In this document: positions 29,690-35,542 of the stretch, piece after piece
How positions within the stretch are numbered: the first letter of the stretch is position 1
Layout: each line of letters starts with the position of its first letter
Assembly (NCBI GenBank): GCA_016841965.1
Contig: JAEANN010000054.1
Coordinates: 1 to 64,000 of the forward strand
Reading direction: 5' to 3'
Origin: Candidatus Roseilinea mizusawaensis
Lineage (GTDB): Bacteria; Chloroflexota; Anaerolineae; J036; Brachytrichaceae
DNA: 64,000 bases
The notes under the pieces: generated by a model
Database searches by the model: none
The model's input: only the letters and a program-made list of their open reading frames with translations
Told to the model about the DNA's origin: nothing
Made by a program: the position numbers and the translations under genes

Positions 29690-31891
29690 TCATCCGCCAC
29701 CGTTGGCAACGGCCCGCAGCATATCTTGACGGTCGATCATGCCTTTCAAATGATTGTCGTGGTCCACCACGACCAGGCGTTTGACCCGCCGCCGAATCAT
29801 GGTCTGTATGGCATCGATTGGCCGGTCGTCATCGAACACAGTGTACACGGTGGGCGACATCACATCCTCAGCCGTGATCTCGTCCAGCAGATCGTGGTCC
29901 GCGGCAGCTTCTCCGCGCAACCAGTGGCGCACGGTGGCCTGAAACGCCTCGTCCGGCATGCCACTCACCCAGTCGAGCAAGTCTCTGTCGATGATGATCC
30001 CGACAACGCGCTGCGCGTCATCCACGACCACCACGCGCCGCAGCGGGTCCGACACCAGCCGTTCGAGCACGGTCGCAAAGGCGTCGTCGGGATTGACCGT
30101 CGCCACGCTGGTGCGCATCCAGCCGCGCACGCGGGCGCGGTCAGTCGGCTCTATGGTGGTCAGATGAGGCGTCTCGACGCGCAGATGCGCTTCCTCGGCG
30201 ATGCAGCGCAAAATATCCGAGCGCGCAACGACGCCTACCAGCGCGCCCTCAGCGTTGATCACCGGCAACCGCTTCAGGCGCTGCTGCGTCATCAGTTGGG
30301 CCGCTTCATCCAGCGAGGCGTTTTCGTCCACCACCTGTGGGTCTGGGGTCATCACATCGCGGGCGGTCATGCTGTGCGACACCCTCAGCGCGCGCTCTGG
30401 ATCGTCTGTCAAAGCCAATCCGCCACGCCGGAACAGATCGCCGGCAGTGACGATGCCGATCACGCGCGATATCGGCACGCCGGCATCTTCGAGCACGATA
30501 ACTGATTTGACCTGCCGCTGCTGAAGTAGGGCCAGTACGTCGGGCAGGGGGGTGTCGGGCGAGGCGATAGCCGGGGCGCGGGTCATGATGTCGCGCACGG
30601 CAAAACGGCGCGGCACTTCAAAGATGAATTTGGGCGTGTCCAGGCGCTGAGCGCTATAGATGCTGCGATGGCCGGAGAACACGTAGCTGACCACTGCGCC
30701 GATCAACATGTACTCGACGCCGACACCGCCGAATAACTCGGCGCCCATCAGCGTCGAAGCCAACGGCGTGTTTGACGCGCCGGCAAACACGGACACAAAT
30801 CCCACCGCTGCCAGCAACAGCGGCGGAACACCCAGCGCCGGCGCCAGCGCGTAGCCCAGTGTGGCGCCGATGATAAACAGTGGCGTGATCTCGCCGCCTT
30901 TGAAGCCAGATCCGACCGTCAGCGCGGTGAAGATGAGCTTGAATAGAAAAGCCAGGGGAACGATCGCAGCGCCACGCCAGATCGCCGCCAACAACGGCTC
31001 GCTGAGGCCCAAATATTCCTGCGTGCCCAACAACCGCGCCAGCGCGATAATGGCAACGCCGCCCAGCGCCGGCCTGAGCCACCCACGCCGGCCGGCCAGC
31101 CGGTTCAGCGCCTGGCTGATGGCGTGCGTCAGTTCGATGAACATCAGGCTGCACACCCCGAACGCCACGCCGGCTACAGCCACGCGCAGCGCCAGCAGTG
31201 GTTCGAGTGGCATGGCCGGCAGAAGCGGGTACGTTTTGGCGTACACGCCCAGCGCCGACACCATTTCGTAGCCCACCACAGACGCAACCAAACAGGGCAC
31301 CAGACCCTCGTAACGCACACGGCCCACGCTCTGCACTTCCATGCCAAACACAGCGCCGGAGATGGGCGCTCCGATCACTGCGCCGAATCCACCGCTCAGG
31401 CCGGCCATCAACAGGATGCGCCGCTCCTCTTTGCTCAGACGCAACAGACGGGCGATCCAGTCGGCCAGTGCGCCGCCCATCTGCACCGCCGTGCCCACGC
31501 TGGCAATGGAGCCGCCGAAGAATAGGGTGACCACCGGCGCCAGAAAGCTGAGCGGGATCATCCGCAATGGCACAGGCCGGCGATTCAGGTGTACTTCCTC
31601 GATCAACAGGTTGTTGCCGCGTTCTGCCGCGCCACCCAGACGCGCGTAAGCCCAATAAATGGCGATGCCGGCGAGCGGCAGGAAGAAAAGCAAATCGAGG
31701 TTGCGCGCATGAACGCTCGACGCCCAGCGCAGCGTGACAAGGAAGATGGCGGCAGCCAGCCCCGCCAGCAGGCCGGCCATCGCGCCGAGCAGCGCCCAAC
31801 GCGCAAATGTGGCGACGATGACCCCATACTGGCGCGGATTGAGATGCGCCACACCAATGCCAACCCGATTCAGGCGTTCGCGCCAATCCAT
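29690..31891 (-). CDS. CLC-F-type fluoride/chloride transporter with CBS domains
   Basis: A 733-residue CLC transporter. The membrane domain (about 25-430) carries CLC-F signatures: GNN (92-94) in place of GSGIP, TAVQMGGALAD (134-144), and GSGFKGGEITPLFIIGATLG (327-346). Four CBS domains follow (about 440-733), unusual in number. At the selectivity helix the family's G-R-E-G-T reads A-S-V-G-T (130-134), so the gating glutamate position is V132. ATG 31891 is set by AAGGAG seven bases upstream; Met codons further up would read through a 16-bp tandem repeat. A fluoride riboswitch controls it, so fluoride export is the inferred role. Confidence 0.88.
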   Translation of the reverse strand: MDWRERLNRVGIGVAHLNPRQYGVIVATFARWALLGAMAGLLAGLAAAIFLVTLRWASSVHARNLDLLFFLPLAGIAIYWAYARLGGAAERGNNLLIEEVHLNRRPVPLRMIPLSFLAPVVTLFFGGSIASVGTAVQMGGALADWIARLLRLSKEERRILLMAGLSGGFGAVIGAPISGAVFGMEVQSVGRVRYEGLVPCLVASVVGYEMVSALGVYAKTYPLLPAMPLEPLLALRVAVAGVAFGVCSLMFIELTHAISQALNRLAGRRGWLRPALGGVAIIALARLLGTQEYLGLSEPLLAAIWRGAAIVPLAFLFKLIFTALTVGSGFKGGEITPLFIIGATLGYALAPALGVPPLLLAAVGFVSVFAGASNTPLASTLMGAELFGGVGVEYMLIGAVVSYVFSGHRSIYSAQRLDTPKFIFEVPRRFAVRDIMTRAPAIASPDTPLPDVLALLQQRQVKSVIVLEDAGVPISRVIGIVTAGDLFRRGGLALTDDPERALRVSHSMTARDVMTPDPQVVDENASLDEAAQLMTQQRLKRLPVINAEGALVGVVARSDILRCIAEEAHLRVETPHLTTIEPTDRARVRGWMRTSVATVNPDDAFATVLERLVSDPLRRVVVVDDAQRVVGIIIDRDLLDWVSGMPDEAFQATVRHWLRGEAAADHDLLDEITAEDVMSPTVYTVFDDDRPIDAIQTMIRRRVKRLVVVDHDNHLKGMIDRQDMLRAVANGGG

Positions 31892-31963: not shown

Positions 31964-31966
31964 AAC

Positions 31967-32003
31967 AAAAAAGCTTCTACCGCGCACACATACGGTAGAA
32001 GCT
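31967..32003 (-). terminator. riboswitch expression-platform terminator
   Basis: Minus strand: an 11-bp perfect inverted repeat AGCTTCTACCG / CGGTAGAAGCT (31993-32003 with 31972-31982, 10-base loop) is followed by a run of six T. The 5' arm shares GCTTCTACC with the 3' strand of the fluoride aptamer, so ligand-bound aptamer and terminator exclude one another. This is the standard ON switch of this riboswitch class. Confidence 0.88.
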
Positions 32004-32228: not shown

Positions 32229-33566
32229 ATGGACATCAACCAACTGGCAACCCTGATTCAATTCGTGGATGAGGAGCGGCGCAAGGACCGCGCCCAGATC
32301 ATTCAGTTGCAGGAAAAGGTAGACGCCCTGACCCGCGAAAATGAGTTGCGCGCCCGCTATGCTCAAGCTGTCGAGTCTCAATTGAATGAGTTGAAGCAGA
32401 CGGTTCAGAAGGCCATGGGGTGGACGTCGGTGGTCGAGCAGGTGCGCCTCGAGTTTGGCCAGATGATCGAGCGGATTGAGGATCAGCGCGCCAAGTCCGA
32501 GCGCGAGTCGGCCCGCATCCGACAGATCGAGATCGAGGCGCTGGTGCGTCAATTGAATGAGCAGAAGCGCGAGATCAAACCCTATGCTCGCTACGCCGAT
32601 GAGTTCGAGGCGCTGAAGCAGGAAGACGCCCGCCTGAATGAGGCCATCAGCCGGGCGCAATCGACCGTGCTCGACATCGAACGTCGGCTCGACATTCCCG
32701 CCGCCTCTATTTCTTACCTCGAAGAGCAGCGCCGGCAGGACAACAAGCGCATCGTAGCCCTTGAACAGGAACTGCCCGACATCCGAAAGCGTATCGAGCA
32801 GTTCCCGCCCCAGTTGCTGCTGCTCGACGAAGCGATCCGCCGCAAACAAGCCGAATTGGAGGAAGCCGCTCGCATTTTGGAGGCCCAGAGTCAGGTAATC
32901 GAAGCGCAGCGTGTGGCCGACATTCGCCGCGAGCGCCAATTCGCCGAGTACGCCGAAATTGTCGAGCGGCTCAAAGAGCGGGCTGATGCTGTGGCCGCAC
33001 AGATCACCGGCTTTGTGCAGATGCGCGAGGAAGTGCGCCGCGCGCTCAACGAGATTCCATCCTCCCTCGAGCGCTTCGAGGTGCGGCTGAATGAGGTGAT
33101 CGAAATCCAGCGCGACAACGAAGCGCGCGCCAAGCGCCAGGCCGACGAGTTCCGCGACGCGATCGAGAAGAACTGGAAGGGATTCGTTGTGTCGCAAGAG
33201 GAGAAGTGGCACGATCGCGACCGGCGCATCGCCGATTACGAGCCGCGACTCAACGCGATCGAAGAAGAGCTGCCCAAGTACCAGCCACAGATTCTGGCTC
33301 TCTACGAATTTGTCGAAGCATTCAGCAAAGCCTATGCTGCCGCCGGCCGCGAATGGCTGTCTCAGGCCAACCAGATGCTGGAAAAGGCGCGCCTGCTCCT
33401 GCCGTCTGAGGTCAACCTGTCTCGCCGGCAGCGCCGCAAGCTGAAAGCCCAGGCCGAGGCCGAAGCCGCCGGCGGCATTCCCCCGAACGGGGCCGCCCAT
33501 GATGAAGCGGAGGGCAACACCCCCGACGATGGCCCCGATAACCTGGATCAAGACCTGATCGCGTAA
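32229..33566 (+). CDS. coiled-coil protein of unknown function
   Basis: A 445-residue, highly charged protein without signal peptide, membrane segment or recognised domain. Nearly the whole length from residue 5 to about 400 is heptad-like (for example EERRKDRAQIIQLQEKVDAL and ADEFEALKQEDARLNEAISR), broken by a few proline-containing turns such as LDIPAASISYLEE and ELPKYQPQ. The last 45 residues are acidic and disordered. Its TAA overlaps the ATG of selB by one base, so the two are co-translated; a structural or scaffold role linked to translation is only a guess. It is divergent from the fluoride riboswitch. Confidence 0.75.
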   Translation: MDINQLATLIQFVDEERRKDRAQIIQLQEKVDALTRENELRARYAQAVESQLNELKQTVQKAMGWTSVVEQVRLEFGQMIERIEDQRAKSERESARIRQIEIEALVRQLNEQKREIKPYARYADEFEALKQEDARLNEAISRAQSTVLDIERRLDIPAASISYLEEQRRQDNKRIVALEQELPDIRKRIEQFPPQLLLLDEAIRRKQAELEEAARILEAQSQVIEAQRVADIRRERQFAEYAEIVERLKERADAVAAQITGFVQMREEVRRALNEIPSSLERFEVRLNEVIEIQRDNEARAKRQADEFRDAIEKNWKGFVVSQEEKWHDRDRRIADYEPRLNAIEEELPKYQPQILALYEFVEAFSKAYAAAGREWLSQANQMLEKARLLLPSEVNLSRRQRRKLKAQAEAEAAGGIPPNGAAHDEAEGNTPDDGPDNLDQDLIA

Positions 33567-35542
33567 TGTCTCGATCTCAGCCGGCATCTGGCCGTTTTGT
33601 CGCGCGCGTGGTGGCCACCGCCGGCCATGTCGATCACGGCAAGTCAACGCTGGTGCGCGCGCTCACCGGCACCGACCCCGACCGCCTGCGCGAAGAACAG
33701 GCCCGTCAGATGACCATCGACCTCGGCTTTGCCTGGTTCGATCTTCCGCCGTCTGACGCGACCGGCGGCGCAGCCGAAACCCAAAGTGTCGGGCTGATCG
33801 ATGTGCCCGGCCACATCGACTTCATCGAAAACATGCTGGCCGGCGTGGGCGGCATCGACGCCGCGCTGATCGTCATCGCCGCCGACGAAGGGCCGATGCC
33901 GCAGACCTACGAGCATCTGGCGATCCTCGATTTGCTGCGCGTCCCGGCTGCGGTGGTGGCCCTCACCAAAGTCGATCTGTTGCCGGCGCCTGCCGACGAA
34001 TGGATCGCGCTGTTGCGCGCAGACGTGGCAGGGCTGCTCAACCGCACCCGCTTCGCCGGCGCGCCCATCGTGCCGGTCAGCGCCCGTGCCGGCCTGGGGC
34101 TGGAAGACCTGCTGGCTGCCTTGGGGCGCATATTACAAGACTCGCCCCGCCGCCAAGACACCGGCCGGGCGCGCCTGCCGATCGATCGCGTCTTCAGCAT
34201 GGCCGGCTTTGGCACCGTGGTCACCGGCACGCTGCTCGGCGCGCCGCTGGCAGTTGGCGACGACGTGGAGATATTGCCCAGGCGGCGTCTTGCGCGCGTG
34301 CGCGGCCTGCAAACCCACAAACATTCGCTCGAGGTGGCCTTGCCCGGCAGTCGCGTTGCCGTCAATCTGGCCGGGGTAGATGTCGCCGACCTGGTGCGGG
34401 GCGATGTCATAGCGTCGCCGGGGTGGCTTCAGCCTTGCACACGGCTCGACGCGCAGATCGAACTGCTGGGCGAAGAAGCCGGCCGGCAGGTCTCGGCCAT
34501 GCGCCGGCCCTTTGCGCTGAAGCACAACGCCGAGGTCAAACTATTCTGCAGCACGAGCGAGCGCCTGGCGCGTGTCCGGTTGCTCGAAGGCAACGAGCTG
34601 GCCCCAGGCGCGGCGGGCTGGGCGCAATTGGAACTTGCCGCACCGGTAGCAGTCGCGGCGGGCGACCGTTTCATCCTTCGGCTGCCTTCGCCATCGATCA
34701 CACTGGGGGGCGGCACCATTGTCGATCCGCAGCCGGCCGGGCGGTATCGCCGGCGAGCCGGCCACGCTGACCCCGACGTGTTGGCCCGCCTGCGCGCGCG
34801 GCTACACGGCGCGCCGGCCCAGCAACTTGAAAGCGCGCTGGCGCGCCTGGGATTTGCCACCCGCGCCGAAGCAGCGCAACAATCCGCTCTTGCGCCAGAG
34901 GCGTTTGCGACGGCCTGGCAGGAACTGATTGCAGCAGATGTGGCGCGCACAGCCGGCGAGGTGATCGCGCTGACGACTGTCTGGCAGCGCGTCGTCGCTG
35001 CGGCAGTGCAGCACACACGCGCCTATCATGCCGCGCAGCCACTGGCCGCCGGCATCCCGCGCGAATCGTTGCGCAGCAAGCTTCACCTGTCGCCGCGCGA
35101 TTTCAATGCCGCGCTGGCCATTGCGACTGCTGAACGCGCGCTGATAGACGAGGGCGACACGGTGCGGCTGCCGGAATTCGAGATCCGCTTCACGCCCGAT
35201 CAGCAGCGCGCGGTGGATGCGTTGCTGGCGCAGATGCGGATCGCTCCGTGGAACACGCCGTCTGTCAAAGAATGCCGGGCGGCGCTGGGGGAAGCTGTCT
35301 TTGATGTTCTGCTGCGCCGCCAGGTGCTGACACAAGTCAGCCCTGATGTGACGCTGCTGCATGAGACTTACGAGCAGGCCGTCGAGCAGGTCAAACACAT
35401 CATCCGGCGCGATGGCCAGATCACCGTGGCCGGCCTGCGCGACGCCTTGGGTACCACACGTAAGTATGCGCTGGCGTTGCTCGAGCACCTCGACCAGATC
35501 GGCGTCACACGACGCGAAGGCGATGCGCGGGTGCTGCGCTAG
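33566..35542 (+). CDS. selB: selenocysteine-specific elongation factor SelB
   Basis: A 658-residue translational GTPase that delivers Sec-tRNA to recoded UGA codons. G1 is GHVDHGKST (20-28), and the T-rich switch I and DxPGH G3 (LIDVPGHIDFIENMLAG) follow. G4 is LTKVD, then EF-Tu-like domains II-III with FSMAGFGTVVTGTL. The C-terminal third consists of winged-helix repeats (PSVKECRAALGEAVFDVLLRR and later DGQITVAGLRDALGTTRKYA), which bind the SECIS hairpin. The ATG overlaps the stop of the coiled-coil gene. selA, selC and selD are not in this window, and no UGA-containing reading frame was recognised. Confidence 0.93.
   Translation: MSRSQPASGRFVARVVATAGHVDHGKSTLVRALTGTDPDRLREEQARQMTIDLGFAWFDLPPSDATGGAAETQSVGLIDVPGHIDFIENMLAGVGGIDAALIVIAADEGPMPQTYEHLAILDLLRVPAAVVALTKVDLLPAPADEWIALLRADVAGLLNRTRFAGAPIVPVSARAGLGLEDLLAALGRILQDSPRRQDTGRARLPIDRVFSMAGFGTVVTGTLLGAPLAVGDDVEILPRRRLARVRGLQTHKHSLEVALPGSRVAVNLAGVDVADLVRGDVIASPGWLQPCTRLDAQIELLGEEAGRQVSAMRRPFALKHNAEVKLFCSTSERLARVRLLEGNELAPGAAGWAQLELAAPVAVAAGDRFILRLPSPSITLGGGTIVDPQPAGRYRRRAGHADPDVLARLRARLHGAPAQQLESALARLGFATRAEAAQQSALAPEAFATAWQELIAADVARTAGEVIALTTVWQRVVAAAVQHTRAYHAAQPLAAGIPRESLRSKLHLSPRDFNAALAIATAERALIDEGDTVRLPEFEIRFTPDQQRAVDALLAQMRIAPWNTPSVKECRAALGEAVFDVLLRRQVLTQVSPDVTLLHETYEQAVEQVKHIIRRDGQITVAGLRDALGTTRKYALALLEHLDQIGVTRREGDARVLR

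Follow-up and report, generated by a model that had tools for sequence, protein, structure and literature searches.

A CLC-F-derived lineage with valine in place of the external glutamate, found behind a fluoride riboswitch in Thermoflexales-type genomes

The window, by which is meant the entire 64,000-nucleotide stretch of Candidatus Roseilinea mizusawaensis DNA that was analysed, carries a gene for a CLC-F-like protein in which the external glutamate (Gluex) has given way to valine. By descent and by fold the protein belongs with CLC-F, and the glutamate is absent, its absence fixed under purifying selection, in a lineage of six Thermoflexales-type genomes that includes the window genome, whose own placement in the Thermoflexales group of Chloroflexota was judged from its near relatives. 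Because of its riboswitch leader, the lack of CRCB and the mutual exclusion of CLC-F-like and CRCB genes, the Glu-less protein appears to occupy the place of a fluoride exporter, and to be the sole recognisable one of the lineage. The balance of evidence leans modestly toward a CLC-F-derived, fluoride-induced fluoride exporter no longer coupled to protons.

The gene (29690..31891, minus strand) encodes 733 aa from an ATG at 31891, with a Shine-Dalgarno sequence (AAGGAG) upstream, a start with which the numbering of V132 agrees. A mechanical ORF call gave a longer frame opening at a GTG at 31987, a codon that falls within the riboswitch terminator hairpin. Pfam recognises only Voltage_CLC (residues 75-406; 8.3e-60) and four CBS domains (8.1e-49), a CRCB domain being absent. 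The closest PDB sequences are those of CLC-F fluoride/proton antiporters, 6d0j, 6d0k and 6d0n (E about 1e-50). A structure model built from 35 homologs, with a mean pLDDT of 87.9 and values >90 around the gate, matches 6d0j at Z 59.2 and 2.0 A over 394 residues, in a comparison that covers mostly the CLC domain and in which chloride CLCs reach 42 and below; Foldseek matched the model to CLC-F with a TMt of 0.94. The published definition of CLC-F uses three signatures, of which GREGT/V is one and GNNLI/GMGLI another (PMC11139923). GNN, TAVQMGG and GSGFKGGEITP, which the first-pass annotation had listed as intact, are all found in the protein: GNN lies in RGNNLLIEE at residues 91-99, and the GEVTP signature takes the form GEITP, with E334 and T336 conserved. 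The fold, the GNN-type motif, G-E-[VI]-T-P and a central tyrosine are shared with CLC-F antiporters such as CLC-F-Eca of Enterococcus casseliflavus (6d0j) and S. mutans ORF 1289. Antiporters of this kind exchange F- and H+ 1:1 and favour F- over Cl- by more than 80-fold. The signature that fails is GREGT/V with its Gluex, in place of which all six lineage members have ASVGT. Since one feature of the three-signature definition is missing, the protein is described here, on its sequence, as belonging to a CLC-F-derived lineage and is not called a CLC-F antiporter.

The replacement of G-R-E-G-T by A130-S131-V132-G133-T134, read from translation and alignments, lies at 31490..31504 on the minus strand, the V132 codon GTG being at 31496-31498; the motif had been recognised correctly in the earlier reading and placed one base off, at 31491-31505. 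The assignment of V132 to the external glutamate holds, as the residue aligns by sequence with E118 (Gluex) of 6d0j and 6d0k, A-S-V-G-T facing G-R-E-G-V in the 6d0j-type alignment, and the whole-fold match agrees. In the predicted structure V132 is the first residue of a helix spanning 132-149. The first-pass annotation had allowed that another acidic residue might stand at the gate; none has been gained in the membrane core across the lineage. New acids particular to the lineage are limited to E155, which opens the helix 154-173 past a short loop, and D418, beyond the last membrane helix, and both were rejected as substitutes since they lie outside the membrane core. Lineage changes at otherwise conserved sites cluster near the gate (T105P, H109L, G116A, R117S and E118V), with V319I in addition; these are given in Eca positions, from outgroup consensus to lineage, the chain numbering of the source alignment being three higher. 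Retained are N93 (the Asn of GNN), E334 (equivalent to Gluin E318), T336 (T320) and Y412 (Y396, the central or inner tyrosine). T320 is counted as important because S. mutans ORF 1290, with Met at that position, does not transport (PMC11077948). The lineage is set apart from CLC-F antiporters by ASVGT for GREGT/V, by the changed positions T105, H109 and R117, and by its four CBS domains.

The leader of the gene holds a fluoride riboswitch aptamer, RF01734 (31989..32090, minus strand; 38.6 bits against a gathering score of 34), the sole one detected in the genome. The 3' end of the aptamer is overlapped by the 5' arm of an intrinsic terminator (31964..32003, minus strand; an 11 bp stem, AGCTTCTACCG / CGGTAGAAGCT, followed by a U-tract; -19.5 kcal/mol, z -4.9), the predicted expression platform. 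A riboswitch with overlapping terminator also precedes four lineage relatives, scoring 35.6 bits at L004 and 31.1, 27.7 and 25.1 bits at L007, L005 and L006, the last three below the curated cut-off but in the right place and on the right strand; none was found by Rfam at a permissive threshold near the sixth member, L008, or near L014, a divergent relative described below. Some CLC-F members are likewise under fluoride riboswitch control. CRCB/Fluc was found neither in the window genome, where 10 of 14 controls were detected, nor in the remaining five genomes with ASV. Within the order, 28 genomes were compared: a CLC-F-like gene is present in 12 and CRCB in 15, with both in none and neither in one. 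Simple counting that ignores kinship gives this exclusion a p of about 4e-7, and of 0.005 when the ASV subset is taken by itself. This pattern is again a likeness to CLC-F antiporters, whose mutual exclusivity with Fluc has been published in general (PMC11139923). A fluoride operon was considered and rejected: no gene adjoining the CLC-F-like gene is common to the relatives' contigs, and only distant flanking matches occur, in L015. Two observations from related genomes belong here. A second strong fluoride riboswitch (L055, G008:C137:2426-2497; 36.8 bits) precedes an aldo/keto reductase-like ORF by about 400 bases, with no known exporter adjoining, and G027, a genome of the window's genus that is 93% complete, has neither a CRCB nor a CLC-F-like match.

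The proposed pathway would begin with binding of fluoride by the leader riboswitch, which would block the terminator and turn the gene on in a fluoride-ON sense. The protein, which keeps CLC-F fluoride-site residues, would take fluoride as its substrate and let F- exit without coupling, as a conductor or a uniporter, with the inside-negative membrane potential as the driving force, as in Fluc; H+ coupling would be absent, and the four CBS domains would probably tune activity. Loss of proton coupling is expected because Gluex is missing and no replacement acid lies near the gate, by reference to published CLC mutants and to ClC-K V166. In chloride CLCs, exchange becomes uncoupled and flow passive once Gluex is neutralised (PMC5362633), and ClC-Ka and ClC-Kb naturally carry V166 at Gluex (PMC10135884). 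With these kidney chloride channels the window protein shares its valine and the presence of CBS domains, and by analogy passive conduction would be expected, that of ClC-K being also insensitive to voltage; they differ in being chloride-selective, barttin-dependent and eukaryotic, with two CBS domains, and the valine is of independent origin. A passive channel using the membrane potential suffices for F- export in the case of Fluc (PMC11139923), and passive, potential-driven export under a fluoride riboswitch is the role proposed here, although Fluc/CRCB has an unrelated fold and is missing from the window genome.

Fluoride conduction does not follow automatically from the loss of Gluex. Last and colleagues are said to have found in 2018 that E118Q or E118A in CLC-F-Eca abolished both F- and H+ transport and permitted fast uncoupled Cl- flux, so that fluoride conduction in the lineage would depend on its other changes at the gate. 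The earlier proposal of a passive channel in place of an antiporter survives in part: loss of coupling is to be expected, given the missing Gluex, the purifying selection and the lack of a substitute acid, but the same reported mutants tell against fluoride flow as its automatic consequence. They also lend weight to an unlikely alternative, in which loss of Gluex reversed selectivity and the protein conducts chloride, or anions with weak selectivity, in uncoupled fashion and would help only indirectly under fluoride stress, e.g. by charge shunting. Simulations that give deprotonated E118 a role in F-/Cl- selectivity point the same way (PMC12035849). Against this, no other CLC-F-like gene and no Fluc gene was found in these genomes, the gene stands under a fluoride riboswitch, the fluoride-site residues are conserved, and a constitutive Cl- leak induced by fluoride alone would bring no clear benefit. 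Within the preferred reading of an uncoupled fluoride exporter, it is possible, though doubtful, that the lineage is a natural fluoride channel on the CLC fold, an antiporter turned passive conductor by Gluex loss in which the CBS domains serve as an integral gate; a slow uncoupled carrier would be at least as likely as a true channel, because Y412 is kept.

Retention of E334, the Gluin equivalent, also bears on the view that the protein is still a fluoride/proton antiporter whose proton takes another route, through water wires, through E334 itself or with HF as the co-transported species. QM/MM work, as cited in PMC12035849, does propose proton release as HF. Gluex is used in all known CLC coupling schemes, its motion being described as conserved in every known CLC type (PMC7253180), and in the lineage no new acid lies near the gate, T105, H109 and R117 (Eca numbering) having been lost together with E118; a surviving proton pathway is therefore quite unlikely.

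The six lineage members are 71-84% identical over the membrane domain, and ASV is present in 6/6 of them versus GRE in 35/35 aligned non-clade homologs, a split that exceeds chance. A wider homolog set divides in the same way, the sole other sequence that covers the site and lacks Gluex being L014. The valine codon varies across the lineage (GTG, GTC, GTT) and dN/dS is 0.09-0.22 at dS 0.7-1.5, from which it is concluded that the valine is held by selection. Open frames of five lineage genes run to 753-776 codons from stop to stop, and the sixth (L008) ends at a contig edge. A tree made without the motif columns united the ASV lineage and Anaerolineae CLC-F at 100/97, the lineage having a long stem (0.62) and the rest of the Anaerolineae CLC-F lying next to it. 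Such a stem might mark a CLC-F relic that transports nothing or is strongly throttled, mainly a CBS-linked sensor, with fluoride handled by an unrecognised exporter, and S. mutans ORF 1290 is a precedent for an inactive CLC-F paralog (PMC11077948). Unlike ORF 1290, the lineage protein is not accompanied in the genome by an active CLC-F, and it keeps T336; its fluoride riboswitch and purifying selection also speak against a relic, which is very unlikely. Sequencing error or pseudogene formation, which the draft state of the assembly (59 contigs) might suggest, is effectively refuted already by the recurrence of ASVGT in six genomes, the variation of the valine codon, the full-length frames and a dN/dS well <1. 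L014 (G006:C30:10552-11736) is a very divergent Glu-less CLC, with AASITG at the gate and GTP replacing GNN, CBS domains absent and no CRCB in its genome; it is fast-evolving, and the tree without motif columns attaches it to the ASV lineage at 100/100 by a branch of 2.28.

The cytosolic tail carries four CBS domains (about residues 431-729, 29705..30601, minus strand), identified by Pfam with outer bounds from the predicted model. The same number occurs in each of the other four members that are complete, L008 being cut by the contig end. The first-pass annotation counted four correctly; its remark that this is unusual for CLC-F is weakened by L087, which has four by Pfam and an intact GREG, and by L110-L113, which also have GREG and match L087 over nearly its whole length. 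The comparison it had suggested, of the gate position in CBS-fused Chloroflexota CLC-F, likewise yields proteins with Gluex intact (L087 and L110-L113), and the CBS tail was dropped as a marker of the Glu-less form. These CBS-tailed proteins, of about 800 aa or more and scattered in other Anaerolineae, are about 50% identical to the window protein in the membrane domain, and L087 shares the leader of riboswitch and terminator; unlike the window lineage they have Gluex, and they sit apart from it in the tree. An AU test of both CBS groups as one clade was borderline (p 0.055). The first CBS domain of the window protein carries a G-h-x-[ST]-x-x-D motif. This motif is frequent in adenosine-nucleotide sites, and nucleotide regulation through the CBS domains may be guessed at. 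According to a 2024 review, no case of a fluoride channel regulated at the protein level in nature has been identified (PMC11139923). A literature search, conducted outside the primary CLC-F papers, found neither a description of CBS-fused CLC-F nor a report of a natural Glu-less CLC-F.

A fluoride-controlled lineage without Gluex offers a direct test of whether a CLC-F pore carries fluoride when deprived of its proton-carrying glutamate. It bears also on how coupled exchangers become passive conductors, and on a possible second evolution of a regulated bacterial fluoride channel outside the Fluc fold.

Elsewhere in the window, a gene for the selenocysteine elongation factor SelB lies at 33566-35542 on the plus strand (TIGR00475, above cut-off). 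No tRNA other than tRNA-Pro was detected in the window, so the remaining selenocysteine machinery is elsewhere or absent. The other CLC of the window genome (L002, G000:C41:73707-74303) is of the chloride type, with GSGIP and GREGPTVQ; its open frame amounts to no more than 348 aa and aligns to just the first 204 family positions, so that it may be broken or split.
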